From Cumulibacter soli (GTDB lineage: Bacteria; Actinomycetota; Actinomycetes; Mycobacteriales; Antricoccaceae), in assembly GCF_004382795.1 (NCBI RefSeq), contig NZ_SMSG01000008.1, forward strand, positions 62,001 through 126,000: 64,000 nucleotides of DNA. The letters are read 5' to 3'. Below the pieces are notes generated by a model, which worked only from the letters and a program-made list of their open reading frames with translations, had not been told where the DNA came from and did no database searches. How positions within the stretch are numbered: position 1 is the stretch's first letter; each line of letters starts with the position of its first letter. This document shows, in pieces, positions 15,953 through 45,133 of this stretch. The translations under genes and the position numbers were made by a program.

Positions 15953-18235
15953 ATGACTGCGCTTGACGATCTGAAGGTCCTCGACCTATCGACCGGAGTC
16001 GCTCCGGCCCTGATGACGATGATGCTCGCGGACTTCGGTGCCGACGTGCTCCGGGTGGAACACGCCGACGGCACTCGTGCTGCCAAGCGCGAGGATCCTG
16101 GCTACGCGATGTGGGATCGAAACAAACGATTGTCACTGCTGAACCCGGACGTGGCGGCGGATCGACAGCAGTTGGCCGCACTCATCGCGGCCAGCGACAT
16201 CGTGGTGACTCAACGTACCGCCGAGGAAGTCGTCTCCGCCGAGGAGCTCTCGCAGCTCTTGGAGGACAACCCGAACCCTACGCGGATCGTGGTGGTGCAG
16301 CCGGCGTACGCCGACTTCTGTCCGTGGGCGTCGGGGCGCGAGTCGAACGAGTTGGCTGCGGCTGCCATCGGCATGTCCCTACGACAGTCCTCAGCAACGA
16401 CCGGACCGATCGACCCGGTGTACCGGCATGTCATCTATGTCCAGGGAATCTGGGGCGCTACCAGCGCGCTGGCCGCCGTACACCACCGCACCTTGACCGG
16501 GCAGGGGCAGACGGTGACCGTTGGCGGCGCACACGCCGGTGCGATCGCCGGATGCGCCACGTCGGTCGTGGATCCCGACAACATCGTCGTTGCGCCGGCG
16601 GCAGGTAATGGCGGGCCGAACGCGACGTACAGCCCATACCAGTGTTCGGACGGCGAATGGCTGTTCGTCGGAGCGCTGACACCGAAGTTCCAATTGCCCA
16701 TGTTCGAGATGCTTGGCCTCGATATCCCGACCGATCCGCGGATCAATGGCGACATGGACGCGATGTTGCTACTGGAGAATCGCGATTGGGTCCGTGCGGA
16801 GATCGCAGCGGTGTACGCAACGAAGCCACGCGATCATTGGTTGGCCGAACTACATCGCCGCGGCGTGCCGGCCGGGCCGGTACAGGAGCGCGAATGTTGG
16901 CTTGACCACGACCAGGTCCAGGCGATCGGCATGCGCGCGGAGATCGATGACCCGCATCGTGGCCGCGTCGTCATGCCCGCGGTGCCGATCAATCTCGCTG
17001 ACACCCCCGGTAGCGTTCGCACGCCGGCGCCCTCGCGAGCGGATGCAGTGGACGCCGTCGAGTGGGTCGCCTCGGATGTCATCACCGCGACCGCCAGCGC
17101 CACCGCTGGGGCCGACGGCCCGCTGACGGGGCTGCGTGTGCTTGATCTCGGCACTGTGCTCGCCGGTCCGTTGACCGGCAGCCTGCTCGCTGAGCTCGGC
17201 GCCGAGGTGGTGAAGGTAGAGCCGTTGGAGGGAGATTCCTTCCGCGTCAAGGGGTTCATGTACAACCGCGGTATGCGCTCGCTCGCGATCAACCTACGCG
17301 ATGAGGCCGCGCGCGAGGCCTTCTACGATCTGGTGCGACACAGCGACGTGGTTGTCGATAACTTCCGACCGGGCGTTCTGACGCGACTGGGTATCGACTA
17401 CGACACGCTCAGCGCGATCAACGACCAGATCATCACGTTGTCGTTCACCGGATACGGCCACGCCGGACCGCTGCAGGCCGAGCCCGGCTTCGATCCGGTA
17501 TTGCAGGCGATGAGCGGCATGATGCGTGCCCAGGGTGGGGACGGCGATCCGGTGTTCCTGACGATGGCAGTCAACGACATTTGCTCAGCGGTGATCGGCA
17601 CGTTCGCCACCACCGTCGCGCTGCATCACCGCGCGCGTGCGGGACGCGGTCAGCAGATCACCGGCTCGCTCGCGGCGACCTCGGTGTTCATGCAATCCGG
17701 CGAGATCACTCGCTTCGAGGGCCGCCGACGTCCGCGGCGAGGCGGCGCGGAATACCAGGGCCCATCCGAACTTGATCGGCTGTATGCCACGGCCGGCGAT
17801 GGTTGGATCCGGCTTCAGGCGACCGAAGAACAGCGAGGCGCGCTTGCTGAACTCGGGTTGACTGGCGACCTGGAGGCTGCCTTCGCGACGCGAGAGCGCG
17901 ACGAGGTAGTGAAATCGTTGACGGCGGCCGGAATCGACGTGGTCGGCGCCTACCACCCGAACGAGCTGATCGAGCACAAGAACCTTCGCGACAGCGAATT
18001 GATCCAGCAGCAATCGAGGCCTAATGGGCGGCCGTTCTTCGCGACGGGCCGGTTGGTGCGCTTCAGCGAGACCGAGCGCTCGGACGTGATGGGTCCGCCC
18101 GGACTCGGCCAGCACAGCGTTGAGATCCTGCGCAGCGTGGGGATCGAAACACCGCGGATCGATGCGTTGTTGAGCAGCGGTTCTGTGGTGACTGGTGAAC
18201 CGATGCCACTGGATAAGTTCGTCAGTTACCGATAA
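15953..18235 (+). CDS. Two-domain CaiB/BaiF (class III) CoA-transferase
   Basis: 760 residues made of two tandem class III CoA-transferase domains, ~1-365 and ~393-760, joined by an Ala/Thr-rich linker. The second domain has the full N-terminal motif (V-L-D-L-G-T-V-L-A-G-P near 396-406), P-G-F-D-P-V-L-Q-A-M-S-G, and the family's aspartyl nucleophile at D542 (V-N-D-I-C-S-A-V). In the first domain the aligned position is G165 (V-Q-G-I-W-G-A-T), so that half probably has no transferase chemistry. Usual family members are ~400-residue single domains that dimerise in an interlocked way; this fusion would be a built-in heterodimer. Acyl donor and acceptor are unknown. Confidence 0.9.
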   Translation: MTALDDLKVLDLSTGVAPALMTMMLADFGADVLRVEHADGTRAAKREDPGYAMWDRNKRLSLLNPDVAADRQQLAALIAASDIVVTQRTAEEVVSAEELSQLLEDNPNPTRIVVVQPAYADFCPWASGRESNELAAAAIGMSLRQSSATTGPIDPVYRHVIYVQGIWGATSALAAVHHRTLTGQGQTVTVGGAHAGAIAGCATSVVDPDNIVVAPAAGNGGPNATYSPYQCSDGEWLFVGALTPKFQLPMFEMLGLDIPTDPRINGDMDAMLLLENRDWVRAEIAAVYATKPRDHWLAELHRRGVPAGPVQERECWLDHDQVQAIGMRAEIDDPHRGRVVMPAVPINLADTPGSVRTPAPSRADAVDAVEWVASDVITATASATAGADGPLTGLRVLDLGTVLAGPLTGSLLAELGAEVVKVEPLEGDSFRVKGFMYNRGMRSLAINLRDEAAREAFYDLVRHSDVVVDNFRPGVLTRLGIDYDTLSAINDQIITLSFTGYGHAGPLQAEPGFDPVLQAMSGMMRAQGGDGDPVFLTMAVNDICSAVIGTFATTVALHHRARAGRGQQITGSLAATSVFMQSGEITRFEGRRRPRRGGAEYQGPSELDRLYATAGDGWIRLQATEEQRGALAELGLTGDLEAAFATRERDEVVKSLTAAGIDVVGAYHPNELIEHKNLRDSELIQQQSRPNGRPFFATGRLVRFSETERSDVMGPPGLGQHSVEILRSVGIETPRIDALLSSGSVVTGEPMPLDKFVSYR

Positions 18236-19365: not shown

Positions 19366-20238
19366 CTAGCGGCGCTCGGCGGCGACCAGCTCGCGCACGG
19401 CGGGGGCAACCTCGCCGGCAAATCGTTCGGTGATAGCGCGGTCATCGCCGCCGATGATGAAGGCACTGATGCCGTGTGTGATCGCGAGGGCGGCGAGTTC
19501 CTCGGCCCACTGACGCGAGGGCGACTGCGACGCGCCCATGTAATTCATCAGCCGGCGGATGTCCGTGGGGGATCGGCCGGCCTGGATCGCGGCGGCGTCT
19601 ATGCGGGCATTGAGTACTGGCAGGTCCGCGGCGCCGCCCGATAGGTACTCCATCGACGGCAGCCACCCATCCGCGTGAGCTCCGGTCAGCGCCAGCATCT
19701 TTGGTTTGTACGCGCCAACCCAGATCGGGACCTCATGGGCTGGTGCCGGCCCACGTTTTGCGCCGACAACCTGGTAGTGCTCGCCGTCATGCTGCACACC
19801 GCCGCGCTTGTCGGTGTCCCACAGTTCACGGATCACGGTGATGGCCTCGCGTAGCGCGTCGACTCCCTGCCCCGGGGTAAGCCGGCGGCCGCCCATCGCG
19901 GCGATGCCCTCCCAAAATGCGCCCGCACCCAGGCCAAGGTTCACTCGTCCGCCGCTGAGTATGTCGAGGCTGGCGACGGCTCGGGCCAATACGGCCGGAG
20001 GCCGCAACGGCAGACTGAGCACATTTCCGGCGATGCGAATGCGCTCCGTGCGGGCAGCGACATACGACATCAAGGTCCAGGTATCCAGGAACGATGACTG
20101 ATACGGATGGTCCTGGAAGGTCACCAGATCCAAGCCCGCAGTGTCCGCAGCCATCGCCAGATCGAGGGCTTGACGGGGATTATCGGCCGTCGGGGTGACA
20201 AACGTGCCGAAAAGTAACTCGTGACCGTAGTCCGTCAT
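19366..20238 (-). CDS. LLM-class F420-type oxidoreductase
   Basis: 290-residue luciferase-like enzyme: F-G-T-F-V-T-P-T near residue 10, V-T-F-Q-D-H-P-Y near 40, G-G-R-V-N-L-G-L-G-A-G near 95-105, W-V-G-A-Y-K-P-K-M-L near 170. Cofactor (F420 or FMN) and substrate are not determined by these motifs. It lies 35 bp downstream of an orphan binding lipoprotein on the same strand, which suggests the imported compound or its product may be its substrate. It is convergent with the MDR gene. Confidence 0.85.
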   Translation of the reverse strand: MTDYGHELLFGTFVTPTADNPRQALDLAMAADTAGLDLVTFQDHPYQSSFLDTWTLMSYVAARTERIRIAGNVLSLPLRPPAVLARAVASLDILSGGRVNLGLGAGAFWEGIAAMGGRRLTPGQGVDALREAITVIRELWDTDKRGGVQHDGEHYQVVGAKRGPAPAHEVPIWVGAYKPKMLALTGAHADGWLPSMEYLSGGAADLPVLNARIDAAAIQAGRSPTDIRRLMNYMGASQSPSRQWAEELAALAITHGISAFIIGGDDRAITERFAGEVAPAVRELVAAERR

Positions 20239-20273: not shown

Positions 20274-21533
20274 CTACTTCTGATGCGGGGTCTTGTACTC
20301 CTTCGCGTCATCGGAGACGAACAGGTCCGCCTCGATGCTCAGCCCGCCGGCTACGTCCGGATCTGGCGTCAGGATGAAGGCTTCGCGGGTCGATGGCTCA
20401 CCGTCCTTGGAAAAGTCCAACGTCCCGGTAAGTCCCTCGGTATCAAGTGAAGTGACCTTCTTCTTTGCCGCGAGCACACCCTTGCGGGTCATATCCCCGG
20501 AGTCACACGCCTCGTTCAGTACTGCTTCCCAGACCATCCCGGTGCTGTAGCCCATGGGGACGCCGACGCTCGGCTCGTCATCGGTTGAATCGGTGTAGTC
20601 CTCGGCGATTTGCTTCGACAGTTCAAGATCCGCCGAGAAAGGGGCAGTGGAGGAGACCATGTAGAAGTTGCTCAGGGCATCGACCATCGCCGGATCGTCC
20701 AGCAGTTGCGGCTGGAATGCCTGGTTGTTGCCGATCATCGGTACGGACAATCCCTGCTCGGCGTTTTGCAGCGCGATGGAGCCGGTCGCGGCCGGGGTGG
20801 TGGTGATCGCGATCAGGTCGACACCTTCGCTCTTCAATTTGGTGACGGTCGCCGTCATGTCTGTATCGGTGGTCGAAATCGGCATCGACACGACATCGAG
20901 ATCGTGTTGTTCGGCGTACCAGTCGACCGCCATCTTGCCGTTCTGTCCGTACTCGGCGTCCTGCCAAATGTGGCCGATCTTGTCGCCATCGGCCAGCATG
21001 CCTTGCTCCTGCATGAAAGACAGGCCGTTGATCATCTCAACGTCGTAGGTCTGTCCGACCAGCATGATCTGTTCGCGATCCAGATTCCCCGCAGCCCACC
21101 CGGCCGGGGTGCTGAGCACATCATCGGCGGTCATCTTCTCCTTGAGCGCCGACAGGATGTGCGAGCCGCCGAGTTGCAGTACGCCCAAGTCATCCTGAGC
21201 AACCGAGGCGTACTGGGGAACCGCGACATCAACTTTGTACACCGTGTCCTGCATATCCAGCACGATGTCGCGGCCGCAGATACCGCCAGCGGAGTTCACG
21301 GTGTCAGCCCACAACTGGTTTCCGGCCGCGATCGCCAAACCGCCTGCCTTGTACGGCCCGGACAGATCGGTCATCACCGCGAGCCGAATCTCCGAATCGC
21401 TGACTCCTACATCTGTCTTCAGGCCACCTTCGCTCATCGAGTCACCGCCATCGGACGATTTCGTTGAGCACGCCGCGCAGAGAATGAGCGCGAGGGCGCC
21501 AGCGGCCAGTGACTTGTTCACAGCTGCAGACAT
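20274..21533 (-). CDS. Branched-chain amino acid/amide-type ABC substrate-binding lipoprotein (orphan)
   Basis: 419-residue periplasmic-binding-fold protein (Peripla_BP_6, LivJ type) with signal peptide and lipidation Cys at C22 (A-A-C). Core: I-R-L-A-V-M-T-D-L-S-G-P-Y near residues 48-60, then G-I-C-G-R-D-I. It is closely similar throughout to the protein at 43868-45133 (shared S-G-P-Y-K-x-G-G-L, E-A-C-D-S-G-D-M-T-R and F-V-S-D-D-A-K-E-Y-K-like ends). No permease or ATPase gene is in the window, so it would have to share a transporter encoded elsewhere or act as a receptor. A TetR operator copy lies 25 bp upstream. Confidence 0.9.
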   Translation of the reverse strand: MSAAVNKSLAAGALALILCAACSTKSSDGGDSMSEGGLKTDVGVSDSEIRLAVMTDLSGPYKAGGLAIAAGNQLWADTVNSAGGICGRDIVLDMQDTVYKVDVAVPQYASVAQDDLGVLQLGGSHILSALKEKMTADDVLSTPAGWAAGNLDREQIMLVGQTYDVEMINGLSFMQEQGMLADGDKIGHIWQDAEYGQNGKMAVDWYAEQHDLDVVSMPISTTDTDMTATVTKLKSEGVDLIAITTTPAATGSIALQNAEQGLSVPMIGNNQAFQPQLLDDPAMVDALSNFYMVSSTAPFSADLELSKQIAEDYTDSTDDEPSVGVPMGYSTGMVWEAVLNEACDSGDMTRKGVLAAKKKVTSLDTEGLTGTLDFSKDGEPSTREAFILTPDPDVAGGLSIEADLFVSDDAKEYKTPHQK

Positions 21534-21557
21534 GAAAGAGCCCCTTCGGTCGGATTC

Positions 21558-21577
21558 GACCTACTATTGCGTATGTC
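21558..21577. promoter_or_regulatory. TetR operator copy upstream of the binding-protein gene
   Basis: GACCTAC-TATTGC-GTATGTC: the same 7-6-7 palindrome as the perfect site at 22244-22263 with one arm change. It lies between the tetR 3' end (21599) and the SBP start (21533), so the SBP can be controlled separately by the same TetR. Confidence 0.6.
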
Positions 21578-21598
21578 ACTACCCGTGTCCAGGAGTCC

Positions 21599-22240
21599 TC
21601 AACGACGCAACCCGCGGATCGCAAACTCGGAGAGCTCGTGAACGGTGCGCGAATCGCGCAATGCCCGCCTGCTGGGATCGGCCGCCTGCCGGTGCCATAC
21701 ACACGCCCAGTTCAGCGTTCCGAGCAAGGCTTTGGCGGTAAGTACCGGATCGGTGCCGGCAACGCTGCCATCTTGCTGGCCGGTGCGAATGAGCTCCACG
21801 AACAACTGCTCGTAATCCCGCCGTAGTGCGTTGATCTTCTCGGTGACATCGATCCAATGCGGATGAGAACGCGCGGATTGAGAGTAGACGTTGATGCTTT
21901 GCAGAAGAACCCTTTGGTAGTCGAGATCGGCGACCATTGCGGCTATGTGAGCGCGGGCCATCCGAGCGAGCCGATCGAACGGCGTCAGGGCTTCGTCCGC
22001 CACGATCGGCTGCACGTGGGCGATCATTCGTTCGATACCACGTTGCTGTACAGCGAGTAATAACGCGGCCTTCGTACGCCAGTAGTGGTAGATACGCCCC
22101 TTGGTCGCGCCTAGTTCCGCAGCCACATCGTCGATGCTGGATCGATCGAAACCGCGCTCGGCGAACACCTTTGCGGCGGCGTCCAGGATTTCGGTGACGC
22201 GCTCATTGGAATCGTCCCCGTCCCGATCCGGCAAAGTCAT
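21599..22240 (-). CDS. TetR/AcrR-family regulator
   Basis: 213 residues. The helix-turn-helix spans ~15-65 (F-A-E-R-G-F-D-R-S-S-I-D-D-V-A-A-E-L-G and K-G-R-I-Y-H-Y-W-R-T-K). The C-terminal half resembles the KstR2-like TetR_C family common in lipid-catabolism loci. It is divergent from an acyl-CoA ligase/dehydrogenase operon, with a perfect 20-bp palindrome adjoining its own start, and a second copy in front of the downstream SBP gene. The ligand is probably an acyl-CoA (inferred from the targets). Confidence 0.9.
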   Translation of the reverse strand: MTLPDRDGDDSNERVTEILDAAAKVFAERGFDRSSIDDVAAELGATKGRIYHYWRTKAALLLAVQQRGIERMIAHVQPIVADEALTPFDRLARMARAHIAAMVADLDYQRVLLQSINVYSQSARSHPHWIDVTEKINALRRDYEQLFVELIRTGQQDGSVAGTDPVLTAKALLGTLNWACVWHRQAADPSRRALRDSRTVHELSEFAIRGLRR

Positions 22241-22243
22241 GTC

Positions 22244-22263
22244 GACATACTAAGGCGTATGTC
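22244..22263. promoter_or_regulatory. Perfect 20-bp TetR operator
   Basis: GACATAC-TAAGGC-GTATGTC, perfect 7-bp arms, 3 bp upstream of the tetR start codon and 64 bp upstream of the divergent acyl-CoA ligase start. The near-copy at 21558-21577 supports it as a real site. Confidence 0.7.
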
Positions 22264-22326
22264 ATGGTTCCCCTCGGCGTCATCTCGTACTCTGCAGGGA
22301 ACCTACGAGTGGATGGGGACAGCACA

Positions 22327-23877
22327 GTGCAGGAGTTGATCTACGGGCGCACGTATTACCCGACCGCCGCGTGGCGTCACGACGCCATCGCAATTCGAGA
22401 TGGCGAGTTCTCCTCGACGTTCGCCGAGCACACGGACCGCATCGAACGCCTTGGTCGCTCAATCCAATCGGTGCTGGGATCGCCGTCGGAACGGTACGCC
22501 GTACTTTCCTTGAACACTCACGAGTTCCTCGAGGCCTGGCAGTCTGCGATGCTCGGCGCAGCCGTGATCACCCCGCTGAATTACCGACTTGCCGCCGCCG
22601 AACTCGCGGGCATTCTCGCCGATAGCGGTGCCCGACTGGTCTTCGTCGACGCCGACCTGCGTGAACTCTGGAGCGAGGTGGCACAGACAGGCGGTTTCGG
22701 TTCGCCTACCGTGGTGGGAATTCGCTGGCACGGCGACGGCGTCACCGATTTCGAACAGTTCCTATCCGCATCTCAGCCGGGTCCGCTGGATGAGCCGGAT
22801 GAAACCGATCTGATGGCGCTGATGTACACCGGCGGTACGACGGGACGCCCCAAGGGCGTGATGATTTCGCATAAGGCCGCCGTGTTGAATATGTTTCACC
22901 AGTTGTCGATCCACCGTCCCGGCGCGCACACCGTCTACCTGCATCAGAGCCCGATCTTCCATGGCGCGGCAATGTGGGGGTTGATGGGTCCCACTGCCGG
23001 CGGAGGTCAGCAATGCGTGTTGCCGAAGTTCACGCCCGAACTGGTGCTGGAGACGGTCGAGAAGTTCCGCGTCACCGAATCGCAGATGGGCCCGACGATG
23101 GTCGGGATGTTGCTGGATGCCTGCGGCGAGGATGTCACGAAGCTCGCGTCCTTGCAGCAGCTCGTGTACGGCAGCGCACCCATGCCGCAGGGCACCGTCG
23201 ATCGCCTGGTTCGCGATCTGCCGAACGTCAAACTGCTGCACGGCTACGGTATGACCGAATCCACCTCAGTCGTGAGCTTCCTGCGCTGGGAGGAACTGCT
23301 CGCCGATCGTTCGCTGATCGCCTCGGTCGGCCGCGTTGCGCCTGGAGTGACGGCGACGATCCAGGACGCCAACGGCGTGATCCTGCCGCCCGGTGAGCAC
23401 GGCGAAATCTGCGTACGCGGGGGAAATCTGACCGACGGTTACTGGCAGATGCCAAAGGAGACCGCCGAGGTATTTCGAGATGGCTGGTACCGCACCGGCG
23501 ATATGGGTCGGATGGACGAGCGCGGCTACATGTGGGTCGTGGACCGGATTAAGGACATGATCATCACCGGTGGCGAGAACGTGTACTCCGCGGAGGTGGA
23601 AAATGCCATCTCCACGCATCCCGCCGTTCGGCAGGTAGCCGTGATCGGTGTGCCGAGCGAGCGTTGGGGTGAGCAGGTGCACGCTGTCATCGTCACGCAC
23701 AACGACCGTGAACTTGCCGAGGCCGACATCGAGCAACACGTTCGAGCACAGATAGCTGGATACAAGGTCCCGAAGTCGTGGACCTTGCAGACCGAAGACC
23801 TGCCAACCTCCGGTGCGATGAAGATCCTGAAGAAGGATCTACGCGAGCGCTTCATCGCCGGTACGTCAGCGAACTAG
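22327..23877 (+). CDS. AMP-forming acyl-CoA synthetase
   Basis: 516 residues from GTG 22327 (GGGGA about 8 nt upstream; an in-frame start at 22264 overlaps the tetR operator and is less likely). The ATP-binding motif M-Y-T-G-G-T-T-G-R-P-K-G-V lies near residue 165, H-G-Y-G-M-T-E-S-T near 310, Y-R-T-G-D-M-G near 390 and the hinge D-R-I-K-D-M-I-I-T-G-G-E-N near 410. It activates a carboxylic acid to acyl-adenylate then acyl-CoA. The P-T-S-G-A-M-K-I-L-K-K end contains the catalytic Lys. It is followed 10 bp later by an acyl-CoA dehydrogenase; both likely respond to the divergent TetR. Confidence 0.92.
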   Translation: MQELIYGRTYYPTAAWRHDAIAIRDGEFSSTFAEHTDRIERLGRSIQSVLGSPSERYAVLSLNTHEFLEAWQSAMLGAAVITPLNYRLAAAELAGILADSGARLVFVDADLRELWSEVAQTGGFGSPTVVGIRWHGDGVTDFEQFLSASQPGPLDEPDETDLMALMYTGGTTGRPKGVMISHKAAVLNMFHQLSIHRPGAHTVYLHQSPIFHGAAMWGLMGPTAGGGQQCVLPKFTPELVLETVEKFRVTESQMGPTMVGMLLDACGEDVTKLASLQQLVYGSAPMPQGTVDRLVRDLPNVKLLHGYGMTESTSVVSFLRWEELLADRSLIASVGRVAPGVTATIQDANGVILPPGEHGEICVRGGNLTDGYWQMPKETAEVFRDGWYRTGDMGRMDERGYMWVVDRIKDMIITGGENVYSAEVENAISTHPAVRQVAVIGVPSERWGEQVHAVIVTHNDRELAEADIEQHVRAQIAGYKVPKSWTLQTEDLPTSGAMKILKKDLRERFIAGTSAN

Positions 23878-23887
23878 GAGCCAGACG

Positions 23888-25030
23888 ATGAGCAGTACGC
23901 CACGCGGTGTGGAGACATTCGGGCTCACCGAGCGCGAGCGAGATTTGTTCTTGCAGACGAGGGAATTGGCGCGCGAGGTACTCGCGCCGCTCGATCGACA
24001 CGACGGACGTGTGAACCGCGAACAGGTCGCCGCGTTGGGTGAAACCGGGCTACTGGAGCAGTTGTATCCGACCGGGGTGGGCGAGCAGTTCCAGCCTGCG
24101 TCCGCGATGACCATTTGCCTGATCCGAGAAGCGCTGTCCTACGAGACCGTCGAGGCAGAATCAGGTTTCGCGATGCAAGGTATCGGCGGTTATCCACTGG
24201 TCAGCGCCAGCGAAGACCACCGGGATGCCTGGATCGAGAAGTTGCGCTCCGGCGTGGCGATCGCTGGGCTAGCCCTCACCGAACCGGGCGCGGGGTCGGA
24301 TGCGGCGAATCTCAGCCTGAGTGCGACTCAACGAGGGAGTGGGTGGCGGCTGAATGGCACCAAACGGTGGATCACCAACGCACCCGATGCCGACTTCTAT
24401 GTGACTTTCGCTCGCACTACGCAAGGAGCGCGAGCGCGCGGTATCTCGGCATTCCTGGTTCCCGGCGACGCCGCCGGTCTGAGCGCTGAGCCGATCGAGA
24501 TGGTCTCGCCGCACCCGCTCGGTCAGCTGGACTTCGCCGATGTCGCGGTAGAGGCCGAGCAACTCGTCGGCGTGCTGGATGACGGGTTCCGACCGGCGAT
24601 GGCCAATCTCGACCGGTTTCGGCCCAGCGTGGGCGCAGCAGCCTGCGGTATGGCGCAAGCCGCTATGGACGAGACGACCAGGCATACCAAAGAACGGGTC
24701 GCGTTCGGCGCGCCGCTGTTTTCGCAACAAGCACTCGCGCACGGCCTTGCTGACGCCCAATCCGAACTTGCTGCGTCGCGAGCGTTGGTGCGGCTCGCGG
24801 CGCATGCGCTCGACGCGGGAGACCCCGAGATAACGACGTACTCGGCCATGGCGAAACTGCGGGCGACCGAGACAGCGCAACGGGTGATCGATACCGCGAT
24901 CCAGTACCACGGAGCGAGTGGGCTGCAACGTGGCCACCTGTTGGAGCGGCTCTATCGCGACGTCCGAGCATCGCGGATCTACGAGGGTGCGAATGAGGTA
25001 CAGCGCACCATCATTGCCCGTGCCTTATAG
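23888..25030 (+). CDS. Acyl-CoA dehydrogenase
   Basis: 380-residue FAD enzyme introducing the alpha-beta double bond. Motifs: L-T-E-P-G-A-G-S-D near 135, W-I-T-N-A near 164, and the C-terminal I-Y-E-G-A-N-E-V-Q-R with the general-base Glu at E366 (MCAD-type position). The start at 23888 follows GGAGCC. It is the second gene of the ligase/dehydrogenase operon. The acid activated by the ligase is presumably its substrate after CoA loading. Confidence 0.92.
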   Translation: MSSTPRGVETFGLTERERDLFLQTRELAREVLAPLDRHDGRVNREQVAALGETGLLEQLYPTGVGEQFQPASAMTICLIREALSYETVEAESGFAMQGIGGYPLVSASEDHRDAWIEKLRSGVAIAGLALTEPGAGSDAANLSLSATQRGSGWRLNGTKRWITNAPDADFYVTFARTTQGARARGISAFLVPGDAAGLSAEPIEMVSPHPLGQLDFADVAVEAEQLVGVLDDGFRPAMANLDRFRPSVGAAACGMAQAAMDETTRHTKERVAFGAPLFSQQALAHGLADAQSELAASRALVRLAAHALDAGDPEITTYSAMAKLRATETAQRVIDTAIQYHGASGLQRGHLLERLYRDVRASRIYEGANEVQRTIIARAL

Positions 25031-25080: not shown

Positions 25081-25596
25081 ATGGATCCGGTCACCCTTGG
25101 ATTCCTCATTGTGGGTGCCGTGGGTCTCGGGGTTCTGCTGCTGTCATTAGTCGTTGGGGATCTAATTCATCTCGGCGATGTCGACGCAGACGGCCCGTTC
25201 TCGCTACCCGCGATCGCCGCGTACGTCGGCGGTGTGGGCTTCTTCGGCGCGATCGCGGCCAGCATTTTCGGAAGTGTGACCCCGGCGCTGATCGCCGGGT
25301 TATTGCTCGCGCTTCCGCTTGCCTTCGGTGCCGTGCGACTGACGCGCAGCCTGTCGAATATGCGCACCGATCGCACGCTGACTGAGGACGACCTGGCGGG
25401 CGCGCTCGGCGTCGTCATCACGCCGATTCCGGCCGCCGGGTACGGTGAGGTCCGCATCAACCTGAACGGGACCGACCTGAAGTATTCGGCGCGTGCCGAT
25501 CAACCGATCGCCAGTGGCACGCCCATTTTCGTTATCAATGCGCTCTCCGCGACGTCGGTCGAGGTCGTCTCCACAGGCGAATCGCAGTTCCCATAA
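25081..25596 (+). CDS. NfeD-like membrane protein
   Basis: 171 residues. A hydrophobic N-terminal segment (~5-27) and a further membrane region (~45-82) are followed by a C-terminal beta-rich OB-fold domain (E-D-D-L-A-G-A-L-G-V-V-I-T-P-I-P onward), the layout of short NfeD/YqiJ proteins. These are partners of flotillins, and a flotillin gene follows 33 bp later. Probable role: membrane-domain organisation with the flotillin. Confidence 0.82.
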   Translation: MDPVTLGFLIVGAVGLGVLLLSLVVGDLIHLGDVDADGPFSLPAIAAYVGGVGFFGAIAASIFGSVTPALIAGLLLALPLAFGAVRLTRSLSNMRTDRTLTEDDLAGALGVVITPIPAAGYGEVRINLNGTDLKYSARADQPIASGTPIFVINALSATSVEVVSTGESQFP

Positions 25597-25629
25597 TCAA
25601 ATCTCGGTACCCGACAGCAGAGGGAAATC

Positions 25630-27111
25630 ATGTCGCCGATCGTCATATCCATCATCGGATTCGTCGTACTCATCATCCTGCTTGTGCTGCTGATTCTCTC
25701 TCGGATCAAGGTGGCCGGACCAAACCAGGCATTTCTGGTTACCGGGCGCCGCGGACGGTCGGTGACGGGAAATGACGGGTCGATCTCCACGGACCTCTCC
25801 GGCCAGAAGGTCGTGATGGGCGCATCTGTTTTCGTACTGCCGGTCGTGCAGAAGTTGCACAGTATCGACCTGTCCAGCCGTCGGATCCCGGTCGGCATTC
25901 GTGGCGCGGTCAGCCTGCAAGGAGTCAAGTGCGATCTCGAAGGCGTCGCGATCGTGAAGGTGGGCGGTAGCGAGTCTTCGATCCGCGCGGCCGCGCAGCG
26001 CTTCCTGAATCAGCAAGAAGGCATCGACGTCTTCACATCCGAGGTGCTCGCCGGCGCGCTGCGCTCGATCGTCGGCCGGCTGACAATCGAGGAGATCATC
26101 CGTGACCGCGCGGCCTTCGCCTCGGCGGTTGCAGAGGAGGCTGAATCGTCGCTGACAGGGCAAGGTTTGGTGCTCGATACCTTCCAACTGCAAGACATCC
26201 AGGCAGAGGGCACGTACCTGCAGGATCTGGGTCGGCCCGAAGCTGCACGAGTGATCAAAGAGGCTGCGATCGCCGAAGCTCGGGCGCGGCAGGCCGCCGA
26301 GCAAGAGCAGCTACTCGCCGATGAGGCGATCGCGGTAGCCAACCGGCAGCTGGAACTGAAGCGTGCCGAGGTCAATGCACAGATCGACGCAGCGCAGGCA
26401 GATGCGGCCGCAGCCGGACCGTTGGCGAAGGCGGAACAGGACCGGCGCATCCTTTCCGAACGCGAGAAGGTCGCGGTCGCGAACGCGGCTCTGACCGAAC
26501 GGCAACTCGACACTGACGTTCGCAAACCAGCTGACGCCGCGCGGTACCGCGTCGAACAGGAAGCCGAGGCGGCCAAGAACGCCGCGATCCTCAAGGCGGA
26601 CGCCGACCGGCAGGCGACGATCGCGAACGCGCAGGCGCAGGCCGAACTGGCACGCCTGACCGGTGAAGGTGAGCAGGCACGACGTACGGCATTGGCTGAA
26701 GCTGAGGCGATCGAGGGCGCCAAGAAGGGTGAGGCCGAGAAATTGCGCCGTCAGGCGATCGCCGACGCGATTGAACGTGAGGGTGCTGCCGAAGCATCTG
26801 CGATCCTCGCTCGCGGACAGGCCGAGGCTGAGGCGATGGACAAGCGTTCCGAGGCGTTCGCGACCTATGGCGAGGCTGCGATGCTGGACCTATTGGTGAA
26901 GGTGCTGCCCGAGGTGGTCGGCTCGGCGGCGGCCCCGCTGTCGAATGTCGATCAGATGACGGTGATCTCGGCCGACGGGCCGGCTGCGCTGTCGAAATCT
27001 GTGGCTGGAAACGTGGCGCAAGGACTGCAGCTGTCGAAGGACCTCACGGGCGTCGACGTCTCGGATCTACTTGCACGGTTGTCGAATAGGCTCGGTACCG
27101 CGGAGAACTGA
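25630..27111 (+). CDS. Flotillin / SPFH-domain protein (YqiK/FloT-like)
   Basis: 493 residues: one N-terminal membrane helix (~3-25), the SPFH/band-7 domain (~30-230, with V-T-G-R-R-G-R), then a long Ala/Glu-rich coiled coil (~230-400, with many A-E-A and A-Q-A repeats) and a conserved C-terminus (L-D-L-L-V-K-V-L-P-E-V-V). This is typical flotillin architecture. It scaffolds membrane microdomains in other bacteria. It is paired with the upstream NfeD-like gene. Confidence 0.92.
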   Translation: MSPIVISIIGFVVLIILLVLLILSRIKVAGPNQAFLVTGRRGRSVTGNDGSISTDLSGQKVVMGASVFVLPVVQKLHSIDLSSRRIPVGIRGAVSLQGVKCDLEGVAIVKVGGSESSIRAAAQRFLNQQEGIDVFTSEVLAGALRSIVGRLTIEEIIRDRAAFASAVAEEAESSLTGQGLVLDTFQLQDIQAEGTYLQDLGRPEAARVIKEAAIAEARARQAAEQEQLLADEAIAVANRQLELKRAEVNAQIDAAQADAAAAGPLAKAEQDRRILSEREKVAVANAALTERQLDTDVRKPADAARYRVEQEAEAAKNAAILKADADRQATIANAQAQAELARLTGEGEQARRTALAEAEAIEGAKKGEAEKLRRQAIADAIEREGAAEASAILARGQAEAEAMDKRSEAFATYGEAAMLDLLVKVLPEVVGSAAAPLSNVDQMTVISADGPAALSKSVAGNVAQGLQLSKDLTGVDVSDLLARLSNRLGTAEN

Positions 27112-27146: not shown

Positions 27147-28106
27147 ATGCAGGTCAACGGCCGAATCGCTGTAGTCACCGGGGCAGGATCAGGAATGGGT
27201 CGGGAGTTGGTTCGGCAACTCGCGGCACAAGGATGCCATGTCGCGGCCTGCGATATCGCTGAGCGAGGCCTCACGGAGACTCGAGAATTGTGCGCTGAGT
27301 ACGACGTGCGGGTAACCACTCACCTGGTAGATGTCGCCGACGAGTCACAGTTGCAGAACTTTGCCGCTGAAGTCCGCGAGCAGCACGACACCGACCACAT
27401 CCACCTACTGTTCAACAACGCCGGTATCGGTGGCGGTGGCAGCATTATCACCGACTCGCGGGAATCCTGGGAACGTACCTTCAGCATCGACTGGGGCGGT
27501 GTTTATCTCGGCGTTCGAACCTTCCTCCCGATGCTCATTGCCGCCGACGAAGCGCGGATCGTGAACACCTCCAGCGTGAACGGCTTCTGGGCCAGCCTGG
27601 GCCCGACCACACCACATACGGCGTACGGCGCGGCGAAGTTCGCTGTGAAGGGATTCACCGAGGCGCTGATTACTGATCTGCGCGTCAATGCGCCGCACGT
27701 GAGCGCGGCGGTAGTCATGCCCGGACACATCGGAACCGCGATCGTGTCGAACTCGCGCAAGGTCGCAACCGGTGTGGACAGTGATCAGCTCAGCCCCAGC
27801 GAGATCGCCGATGTCCGTGGGCGCATGTCCGTACTCGGCGAGGACATCGAATCACTGAGCGACGATGAGATCCAGGCGTTGGTTGCCGATCGAGCTCGGC
27901 ATTTCGAGGAGAAGGCACCGACCACTGCGGCCGAAGCGGCGGGGATCATCCTGGACGGCGTGCGTCGGGATAAGTGGCGGATTCTCGTCGGCGAGGACGC
28001 CGTCGGCCTGGACGAGCACGTGCGTCGTGATCCGGAGAACGCCTACACGCCGGAGTTCCACGCCATGCTGCAAGAGGACATTCGCTGGGGTCTCGGCGGG
28101 CAATGA
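27147..28106 (+). CDS. SDR-family oxidoreductase (long form)
   Basis: 319 residues. T-G-A-G-S-G-M-G at 11-18, N-N-A-G near 93, S-S-V-N-G then Y-G-A-A-K as catalytic Tyr/Lys. It is ~60 residues longer than typical SDRs, because of an extra helical segment after the active site (S-D-Q-L-S-P-S-E-I-A-D-V-R-G-R, about 210-250). The start is ATG 27147 with GGAGG 5 nt upstream, not the GTG at 27135. It overlaps the next gene by ATGA, so it is first in an operon with the deacetylase-like gene and two acyl-CoA dehydrogenases. Confidence 0.9.
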   Translation: MQVNGRIAVVTGAGSGMGRELVRQLAAQGCHVAACDIAERGLTETRELCAEYDVRVTTHLVDVADESQLQNFAAEVREQHDTDHIHLLFNNAGIGGGGSIITDSRESWERTFSIDWGGVYLGVRTFLPMLIAADEARIVNTSSVNGFWASLGPTTPHTAYGAAKFAVKGFTEALITDLRVNAPHVSAAVVMPGHIGTAIVSNSRKVATGVDSDQLSPSEIADVRGRMSVLGEDIESLSDDEIQALVADRARHFEEKAPTTAAEAAGIILDGVRRDKWRILVGEDAVGLDEHVRRDPENAYTPEFHAMLQEDIRWGLGGQ

Positions 28107-29227
28107 TGGCCTCCTCGAACACGGGATGGGTGTGGCACGAGCGGTACGGTTGGTATGACACGGGTCGATTCGCTGGCCTGGTGCCGCCCGGCGGATGGGG
28201 CGAACCCGATGTACATATGGAAAATGGGGAGACCAAGCGACGGCTCGCCTCTCTGGTATCGGCCTCCGGCCTCATTCATGAATTGACCCCGATCCGGCCT
28301 CGCCAGGCCACTGACGAGGAGATACTCACCGCGCATACCGCGGACTACCTCGCGTACTTAGAGGAGCAGAACGCTCATCCTCGTGGCGGGATCGCCGACC
28401 GCGGCATCGGACGGACGGTATTCAGCCACGGCGATTTGGACATCGCACGTCTCGCCGCTGGGGGTGTGATCGAGGCGGGACTCGCGGTCGCTCGCCGCGA
28501 GGTCGACAACGCTTACGCGCTCACTCGCCCGCCCGGACACCACGCACTGCCCGACACCGGGCTGGGGTTCTGCGTGTTTGGGAACATCGCGATCGCAATC
28601 CATGCGATCCGCGCGGCGACCAGCCTGACACGGTTCGCTGTCGTCGACTGGGATGTGCACCACGGCAATGGGACCCAGGCGATGTTCTGGGACGATCCGG
28701 ACGTGCTGAGCATCTCGGTCCACCAGGATCAGTTGTTCCCGGACGCGCAGGGACTCGTCGATGAACGAGGCGGACCCGCGGCCGAAGGCATGAACCTGAA
28801 TATCCCGTTGCCGCCAGGGTCCGCGCGTGGCGCCTATCAGCAAGCATTCGAGCAGATTGTGTTGCCCGCGCTCGATGCCTACGCGCCCGAGATGGTGATC
28901 GTCGCGTGCGGATTCGATTCGGGTACGTACGACCCGCACGGACGGATGATGCTCGGTAGCGATGACTTCCGCTGGATGACGGCGCAACTCAAACAGTTTG
29001 CGGTAGATCGCAGCGACGGCCGGCTTCTGGTCGTACACGAAGGCGGATACTCGGCGTGGTACGTGCCGTTCTGCGGTCTGGCCGTCGTAGAGGAACTCAG
29101 CGGTGTACGCACCGACATCGTCGACACCTTCATGCCGCGACTGGCCGCCAACCCCACCACTCGATTGCAACCACACCAGCAAGAACATATCGACCGCGCC
29201 GCTGAGGGCCTGCGGCTACTGAAATAA
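28103..29227 (+). CDS. Class II histone-deacetylase-like amidohydrolase
   Basis: 374-residue arginase/deacetylase-fold hydrolase with a full HDAC active site: tandem H146-H147 in R-P-P-G-H-H-A, zinc ligands D184, H186 (D-W-D-V-H-H-G-N-G-T) and D272 (C-G-F-D-S-G), and the transition-state Tyr Y316 in E-G-G-Y-S. Bacterial members act on acetylpolyamines, acetoin-like or acylated small molecules rather than histones. It is ATGA-coupled to an SDR and followed 9 bp later by acyl-CoA dehydrogenases, so an acyl-amide or acyl ester catabolite is a reasonable guess. Confidence 0.9.
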   Translation: MMASSNTGWVWHERYGWYDTGRFAGLVPPGGWGEPDVHMENGETKRRLASLVSASGLIHELTPIRPRQATDEEILTAHTADYLAYLEEQNAHPRGGIADRGIGRTVFSHGDLDIARLAAGGVIEAGLAVARREVDNAYALTRPPGHHALPDTGLGFCVFGNIAIAIHAIRAATSLTRFAVVDWDVHHGNGTQAMFWDDPDVLSISVHQDQLFPDAQGLVDERGGPAAEGMNLNIPLPPGSARGAYQQAFEQIVLPALDAYAPEMVIVACGFDSGTYDPHGRMMLGSDDFRWMTAQLKQFAVDRSDGRLLVVHEGGYSAWYVPFCGLAVVEELSGVRTDIVDTFMPRLAANPTTRLQPHQQEHIDRAAEGLRLLK

Positions 29228-43867: not shown

Positions 43868-45133
43868 TTATTCGTACGGCGCCTTGTATTCCTTCGCGTC
43901 ATCGGAGACGTACAAGTCGCTCACCGCTTGCGTCCCGCCCGGGATGTCTGCGGCCAGTTGCGCGATGTAGACCTCGCGGGTGGTGGGCGCGTTCGGGTTG
44001 CTGAAGTCCAGGGTGCCGGACAGGCCGCCGGTATCGAGGTCGTCGACAGTTTTGCGCGCCTCCATCACGCCTTCACGCGTCATATCTCCCGAGTCGCACG
44101 CAGCTTCCAAAATTGCGCCCCAGGCCAGCGCGGCGAGGTACCCGACGAAGGCCGTGCTGGATGGCGGGTCCTCGATGTCCATCTCATCCCATGCATCGCG
44201 GACCTTCTGCGCCTCGGGCGTATCGGTCATCCACGGCGCCGCCGACGCGGTGAGGTAGTAGTTGTCGGTCAGCGCGTCGACGACTTCCTCGCTGGTAACC
44301 AGGGTGGGCGCGTAAGTCGGCCCCCAACCCAGCAGCGGCATATCCATGCCCTGAGCCTTCATCTGTACGCCGATGGAGGAGACCTGCGCAGGCGAGACCA
44401 TCGCAGCCATGAGCTTGACGCCGTCTGACTTCATCTTCGTCACGGTTGAGGTCATATCGGCGTCGGTGGCCCCGACCTCGGACTCGATGATCGTGATGTC
44501 GTGTTGTTCGGCGAAGTACTTGGTGCCCGCGATGCCGTTCTGGCCCGCTTCGTTATTCAGGTAGATGGCACCGATCGTGTCGCCCTCCGACAGCATGCCC
44601 TGCTCCATCATCCAGGAGAGGCCGTTGATCATCTCAACGTCGTACGTCGTGGTGGTCGCGAGGATCTGATCGTTGTCCAGGTTGTTCGAGGCCATCGACG
44701 GCACGCCGGCCAGCATCTTGTCCTGCGACAACTTTGTCTTGACCGCGGCGAGGGTGGGCGACCCCAGCAGTTGCACCAGGCCGAGGTCATTCGAACGCAT
44801 CTCTTCGTAAAGCGGTACGGCGTTCTCGGCCTTGTAGCCGTGATCCTTGATGTCGAATTCGATCTGGCGGCCGCAGATGCCACCATTGTCATTGACCTCG
44901 TCGGCCCAGATCTGGTGACCGTAGAGCGCGGAGAGGCCACCGGACTTGTATGGACCGCTCGCGTCGTACAGCACACCGAGCGTGATGGTGTCGTCCGTGA
45001 CGCCGATGTCGGTTTTCAGGCCGCCTTCGCCATCGTCCCCGCTACCGCCCGACTCGGACTTGGTCGAGCAACTCGTGAGCGCGAGGATGACAGCGGCGCC
45101 AAGACCAACGAGCGCCGTGGTGGATTTACGCAT
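43868..45133 (-). CDS. Branched-chain amino acid/amide-type ABC substrate-binding lipoprotein (orphan paralogue)
   Basis: 421 residues; signal peptide with lipobox L-T-S-C22, Ser/Gly linker, then Peripla_BP_6 domain (I-T-L-G-V-L-Y-D-A-S-G-P-Y near 52-64, G-I-C-G-R). It is a clear paralogue of 20274-21533, sharing long colinear blocks and the E-A-C-D-S-G-D-M-T-R-x-G-V segment. No permease or ATPase lies nearby. It is divergent from the kinase/dehydrogenase pair at 45363, hinting that it captures the substrate degraded by that pair. Confidence 0.9.
   Translation of the reverse strand: MRKSTTALVGLGAAVILALTSCSTKSESGGSGDDGEGGLKTDIGVTDDTITLGVLYDASGPYKSGGLSALYGHQIWADEVNDNGGICGRQIEFDIKDHGYKAENAVPLYEEMRSNDLGLVQLLGSPTLAAVKTKLSQDKMLAGVPSMASNNLDNDQILATTTTYDVEMINGLSWMMEQGMLSEGDTIGAIYLNNEAGQNGIAGTKYFAEQHDITIIESEVGATDADMTSTVTKMKSDGVKLMAAMVSPAQVSSIGVQMKAQGMDMPLLGWGPTYAPTLVTSEEVVDALTDNYYLTASAAPWMTDTPEAQKVRDAWDEMDIEDPPSSTAFVGYLAALAWGAILEAACDSGDMTREGVMEARKTVDDLDTGGLSGTLDFSNPNAPTTREVYIAQLAADIPGGTQAVSDLYVSDDAKEYKAPYE

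Follow-up and report, generated by a model that had tools for sequence, protein, structure and literature searches.

A tetR gene of Cumulibacter soli is flanked on both sides by nearly the same 20-base inverted repeat, and the genes beyond the repeats encode an acyl-CoA ligase and an acyl-CoA dehydrogenase on one side, and an SBP and a luciferase-like (LLM) oxidoreductase on the other. This locus raises the question whether the repeats are the operators of the TetR protein and whether a single repressor governs these genes, as proposed in the original prediction, which tied capture, CoA activation, dehydrogenation and the LLM enzyme into one pathway. We analysed the window, that is the whole stretch of 64,000 nucleotides, together with its genome and the loci of TetR relatives elsewhere. 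Overall, the mini-regulon very probably exists and appears to represent a recurrent type of DarR-related repressor that would control acid uptake and acyl-CoA breakdown.

Predicted operators and genes of the window

Both repeats are present where they had been predicted (Table 1). Operator 1 is a perfect 7-6-7 inverted repeat and operator 2 carries one change in an arm, and TAC-N6-GTA is retained in both. Their likeness is wider than had been noticed: 20 of 23 bases are common to 21556-21578 and 22242-22264, among them four of the six in the spacer. Both operators share, imperfectly, the core ATACT(N)4AGTAT that has been reported in operators of DarR from Mycolicibacterium smegmatis (PMC10636190), operator 1 with 9 and operator 2 with 8 of its 10 bases, and in each of them C replaces A at core position 10. 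The C at position 13, also found in both, is rare in foreign sites (6%); at position 4, the C of operator 2 is the departure met most often among foreign sites (9%).

Table 1. Predicted features around the two operators, in order of position.
Feature	Position	Strand	Sequence or match	Context
LLM (luciferase-like) oxidoreductase	19366..20238	-	PF00296 9.1e-50	
LIV-type SBP (Peripla_BP_6), lipoprotein-like	20274..21533	-	PF13458 1.7e-39	
Operator 2	21558..21577		GACCTACTATTGCGTATGTC	65-base gap between tetR and SBP gene; 14/16 to RACATACTNNNNAGTATGTY
Promoter-like TGGACA-17-AATAGT for SBP-LLM	21563..21591	-		second hexamer inside operator 2
Predicted TetR repressor, DarR-related	21599..22240	-	TetR_N 2.7e-17, TetR_C_24 2.5e-16 (Pfam)	
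Operator 1	22244..22263		GACATACTAAGGCGTATGTC	divergent gap between tetR and ligase gene; 15/16 to RACATACTNNNNAGTATGTY
Candidate -10 hexamer of a putative leaderless tetR transcript	22247..22252	-	TAGTAT (by eye)	inside operator 1
AMP-forming acyl-CoA ligase	22264..23877	+	PF00501 1.5e-72	
Acyl-CoA dehydrogenase	23888..25030	+	PF00441 2.3e-45	

The pair is specific to this locus. When the whole genome was searched for GACMTAC-N6-GTATGTC, as had been suggested, operators 1 and 2 were the sole places at zero or one mismatch. With up to two mismatches the search gave 12 forward and 13 reverse matches, the operators included, whereas the reversed control gave 6 and 9. In addition, we built a matrix from 77 distinct foreign sites beside homologous tetR genes. 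They were obtained from 96 sites at 64 loci out of 70, namely the 66 described below and four from the order. In the window the matrix ranked operator 1 first with 25.9 bits and operator 2 second with 21.4 bits, followed by a third place with 7.0 bits, and no place in 6 Mb of simulated DNA scored above 16.5 bits. A wider regulon in this genome was rejected, as the other two-mismatch places lie near background and all score at most 14.3 bits. The best of them, C1:625219, adjoins a small gene that looks WhiB-like by eye, and the place C3:587134 (13.4 bits) was rejected as well: it lies near a TetR gene whose helix differs (IKRGALYYHISSK). No exact copy of RACATACTNNNNAGTATGTY, the longer motif introduced below, occurs in the genome.

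The tetR product belongs to the TetR family (TetR_N with 62.7 bits against a Pfam cut-off of 24) and has the recognition helix GATKGRIYHYW and a TetR_C_24 domain at its C-terminus. The first gene downstream of operator 2 encodes the SBP, which shows a lipobox-like LCAAC by eye, and the LLM gene follows after 35 bases. The best NCBIfam match of the LLM oxidoreductase, TIGR03619, stays below its cut-off (134.5 versus 166.9 bits). The enzyme is probably of the F420 type; cofD is present in the genome and F420 is therefore likely made. On the other side, the listed ATG of the ligase at 22264 touches operator 1; judged by eye, translation more likely begins at the GTG at 22327, which has GGGGAC in front of it. 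The acyl-CoA dehydrogenase gene follows after 10 bases, and its product matches best the NCBIfam cyclohexane-1-carbonyl-CoA dehydrogenase with 209 bits, below the cut-off of 650. As for the promoter-like sequence upstream of the SBP gene, a scan for its type found one instance versus 1.3 expected by chance, a weak signal when taken alone.

The LIV-type SBP family is strongly expanded in this genome, where ten scattered copies comprise the SBP beside operator 2 and nine paralogs; 20274-21533 and 43871-45109 are the members within the window. Tandem runs of 8, 5, 6 and 9 such genes occur in other genomes of its genus or family (L091, L092, L093 and L094). LIV-type permeases stand beside one of the ten copies, that on contig 11, and none was found beside the SBP under study, which may borrow a permease from elsewhere.

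Recurrence of the operator beside related tetR genes

Loci for comparison were chosen by similarity of the TetR protein and not by the motif. Within the order, the core ATACTNNNNAGTAT was matched at 9 or more of its 10 positions beside 11 of 14 tetR relatives, versus none of 26 control loci of SBP paralogs; the three loci of the 14 that lack a core site lie on long branches of the tree. The longer motif RACATACTNNNNAGTATGTY was derived from the loci of the order and then tried on 80 further loci (L122-L201), the best 80 of 263 relatives obtained by a profile scan of species genomes. Three pairs across the two sets (L114/L139, L116/L172 and L117/L176) look like the same loci, and all counts given here are of loci and not of independent events, with many close relatives such as five from Achromobacter. 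Among these best 80 of 263, RACATACTNNNNAGTATGTY was matched at 14 or more of 16 positions in 56 loci and at 13 or more in 66, the site of the remaining 14 falling below 13. As controls, 40 permuted palindromes were used, 34 of them distinct. At 14 of 16 positions, 38 of the 40 found none of the same 80 loci, and the other two found one locus and, for a palindrome that keeps ATACT, six. At 13 of 16 positions the highest control reached 12 of the 80 loci, versus 66 for RACATACTNNNNAGTATGTY.

For the neighbouring genes we considered the 66 of the best 80 of 263 loci whose TetR has the helix KGR-x-YH, excluding the 14 with other helices. These loci, from Proteobacteria and Actinobacteria, share helix (GATKGR[IV]YH) and RACATACTNNNNAGTATGTY with the window and likewise have SBP, ligase, acyl-CoA dehydrogenase or enoyl-CoA hydratase genes under the operator. 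A site at 13 or more of 16 positions was present in 60 of them and fell short in 6. In all 60 site-bearing loci, a site lies at most 500 bases before a listed gene match, on its reading side; genes at the loci were named from tblastn matches (E ≤ 1e-8) to window proteins and to those of locus L113, and each distance was measured to the start of the match and not to the start codon. The matches so preceded were tetR and enoyl-CoA hydratase (27 loci each), LIV-type SBP (21), FadD-type ligase (13), acyl-CoA dehydrogenase (10), SDR (2) and CaiB (2). Counted by site, 86 of 88 stand before such a match, versus a mean of 22.3 and a maximum of 34 of 88 in 500 random draws. About half of the loci also have LIV permease or ATPase matches (LivH in 34 and LivF in 38 of the 66), whereas in the window the SBP gene comes without transporter genes and is accompanied by the LLM gene. 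No LLM match at E ≤ 1e-8 was found in the best 80 of 263 loci, each of which extends for 8 kb or less on either side. SBP genes at several loci (L124, L137, L152, L178, L180, L194 and others) are preceded by two operators, spaced by about 110 or 230-300 bases.

Among 397 genomes of the order, two contain an exact match to RACATACTNNNNAGTATGTY; the reversed control of this search also matches, in G012. One of the two genomes carries the closest relative of the TetR protein, and the match lies in that very locus, between an enoyl-CoA hydratase gene and a SBP operon of the Peripla_BP_6 (LivK) type. This operon is led by the SBP gene and further comprises genes for LIV transporter, acyl-CoA dehydrogenase, cyclase, TetR and AMP-ligase, with a CoA-transferase gene further on. 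In the other genome, no acyl-CoA genes were seen by eye around the matching site and no TetR relative was found at E ≤ 1e-28, and this match may be due to chance. The SBP of the window belongs to the same Pfam family as the SBPs of the relatives and is not their ortholog.

The TetR protein itself is 34-42% identical to the best 80 of 263 relatives. Close orthologs were found neither by exact peptide patterns in genome contigs nor, above 42% identity, in similarity searches. The best 80 come from Pseudomonadota, which predominate, and Actinomycetota, whereas DarR homologs are described in a review as occurring mainly in Gram-positive bacteria (PMC5575661). Two single records are labelled Oceanobacillus (Bacillota; L149) and Hydrogenedentes (Hydrogenedentota; L153). 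Their TetR proteins match, exactly or nearly so, TetR proteins of one alphaproteobacterium and one actinobacterium among the relatives, and the labels may be wrong or the contigs mislabelled. On the protein tree the TetR of the window forms a long, unplaced branch beside another long branch (support 19), and a DarR-like clade has a support of 95 (SH-aLRT, quick tree). The KGR-YH group is defined by its helix and is not one clade, with five changes on the best tree of which at least two are forced. The window falls into this group by its helix and by sites with 15 and 14 of 16 matches to RACATACTNNNNAGTATGTY beside acyl-CoA and LIV-type genes. FadP and LiuQ of beta-proteobacteria are, according to PMC5343134, TetR regulators that govern fatty acid and branched-chain degradation; they resemble the TetR studied here in family and in their link to acyl-CoA catabolism, and some of the proteobacterial loci may be identical with FadP or LiuQ systems. 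Among the papers listed by our literature searches, which lay mostly outside subscription journals, none reported the wider DarR-related group, the operator letters or the gene set. A PADLOC scan gave nothing useful.

Relationship to DarR and rival readings

The closest solved relative of the TetR protein is DarR (PDB 8suk, E=1.6e-31), for which PMC10636190 reports the structures 8suk, 8sua, 8svd and 8sv6. There, Lys44 and Gly45 read TXC half sites, and W177, Q184, L192 and R165 are among the residues that bind c-di-AMP and cAMP. Carrying the residue numbers over by our own counting on the alignment, the DNA-contacting Thr43, Lys44 and Gly45 of DarR correspond to T46, K47 and G48. The pocket residues His94, Arg135, Tyr138, Leu168 and Asn172 are kept as well, His94, Arg135 and Asn172 being H98, R140 and N177 in the window, whereas Met66 is replaced by Ile, Asn97 by Ala, His105 by Gln, and Val108 and His109 both by Leu. 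All 70 relatives compared share K47, G48, H98, R140, N177 and W182 with the window. From this comparison, the TetR of the window probably acts on DNA like DarR. However, its sites add an outer ACA/TGT to the DarR core, and residue 49 of DarR is Tyr but the corresponding residue here is His. DarR occupies its operator as two interacting dimers; by eye, operator 1 lacks the TXC motifs for the second dimer. The neighbourhoods differ too: SBP, LLM, ligase and acyl-CoA dehydrogenase genes surround the TetR of the window, whereas DarR regulates a putative MDR transporter, fatty acid genes and cspA (PMC10636190). Repression of its own gene, predicted here, is a trait of DarR as well.

Given this kinship and the shared operator core, the TetR could be DarR itself, co-repressed by c-di-AMP and cAMP, so that the operons would follow a second messenger and not a substrate; a diadenylate cyclase domain (PF02457) is indeed present in the genome. 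However, the DarR signature W(X)6Q(X)7L plus Arg165 is broken, with W182 kept and P189, S197 and K170 at the other places. All 16 scored members of the DarR clade (18 proteins, 2 of them not scorable) have Gln and Leu together, versus 1 of 70 KGR-YH proteins; counted separately, Gln is present in 24 and Leu in 23 of these 70. The replacements of Asn97, His105 and His109 in the pocket also speak against this reading, which we regard as quite improbable. DarR in the strict sense was rejected since Gln and Leu of the nucleotide signature are missing, and because of their absence the TetR of the window is probably a metabolite-sensing variant and not DarR itself.

The second operator can be doubted separately. 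Operator 1 might be a real, autoregulatory site and operator 2 weak or decayed, the SBP and LLM genes then lying outside TetR control or being reached by read-through from the tetR promoter. Besides its arm change, operator 2 scores 4.5 bits less than operator 1, and with the consensus pattern ACATACYNNNNRGTATGT it is only one of nine two-mismatch places (ten places in total versus seven for the control). The SBP and LLM genes are oriented like tetR, and the 65 bases that separate tetR from the SBP gene showed no terminator-like site. Yet the 21.4 bits of operator 2 exceed simulated DNA and all other places scored, TAC-N6-GTA is intact, L133, L179 and L193 also have C at position 4 of their best sites, and operators precede SBP matches in 21 other loci. 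Taken together, we consider a decayed operator 2 unlikely. That both operators are chance similarities or a repeated DNA element without regulator binding is extremely improbable. The loose three-mismatch pattern was not significantly enriched in the window (8 found versus 5.3 expected, with 20 of 100 shuffles as high), in keeping with chance; but the only two copies in the genome within one mismatch both sit in short gaps around tetR, and both take the top ranks with a matrix of foreign operators. Chance and a repeat element were rejected by the genome-wide search and the foreign-site matrix.

Proposed regulon and its place in a wider family

With good confidence we predict that a metabolite-sensing TetR repressor related to DarR governs a local regulon of two sites, and this regulon could work as follows. 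The TetR would bind both RACATACTNNNNAGTATGTY-type operators via K47-G48 of the recognition helix, contacting TAC-N6-GTA. Occupancy of operator 1 would cover the start region of tetR and of the divergent operon for ligase and acyl-CoA dehydrogenase, and occupancy of operator 2 the putative SBP-LLM promoter. An organic acid or its CoA thioester, bound in the pocket with the conserved R140, H98 and N177, would release the repressor, and capture, CoA activation and dehydrogenation would be switched on together. Since sites precede such matches in the foreign loci, the placing of capture, activation and dehydrogenation under one repressor appears to recur, which supports the single repressor of the original prediction in regard to SBP, ligase and dehydrogenase. 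The LLM enzyme, which had been included as well, is joined by adjacency only.

A broader reading is tentative, its chances falling slightly short of even. DarR would be one branch of a repressor family of at least two phyla with one operator code. The larger part of this family, marked by KGR[IV]YH and RACATACTNNNNAGTATGTY, would sense a catabolic acid or acyl-CoA and drive LIV-type uptake, CoA ligation and beta-oxidation, the second-messenger site being confined to the DarR branch. His versus Tyr at DarR position 49 would set the specificity for the outer ACA/TGT, and the window would represent a diverged member with an SBP lacking transporter genes and an LLM enzyme. In regard to position 49, of the 58 proteins with His and a core site (the window included), 56 have the outer AC on one side of the core or on both, and 29 on both, versus 5 and 0 of the 21 proteins without His. 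The tree gives only two to three independent contrasts for this association, so that a test on the tree has no power, and shared descent accounts for it as well as cause does.

Through the analysis, a repeat spotted by eye becomes a regulon that can be tested and whose operator code is known. The analysis would also link the c-di-AMP-binding repressor DarR to a broad set of putative catabolic regulators without the second-messenger site, and the operator code could allow regulon predictions for many unstudied TetR genes. The further question arises how a metabolite repressor and a nucleotide-reading repressor came to share an operator.

Several neighbouring genes are worth mentioning. Between two sets of acyl-CoA genes, the stretch 25081-27111 encodes a flotillin-like protein (Pfam Band_7 and Flot) preceded by a 171-residue frame without family match. 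A protein with a histone deacetylase domain (28103-29227) lies within a series of SDR, acyl-CoA dehydrogenase and ligase genes. Finally, a protein of 760 residues (15953-18235) has the look of a fused pair because both of its halves match a single CaiB-type CoA-transferase frame in other loci.
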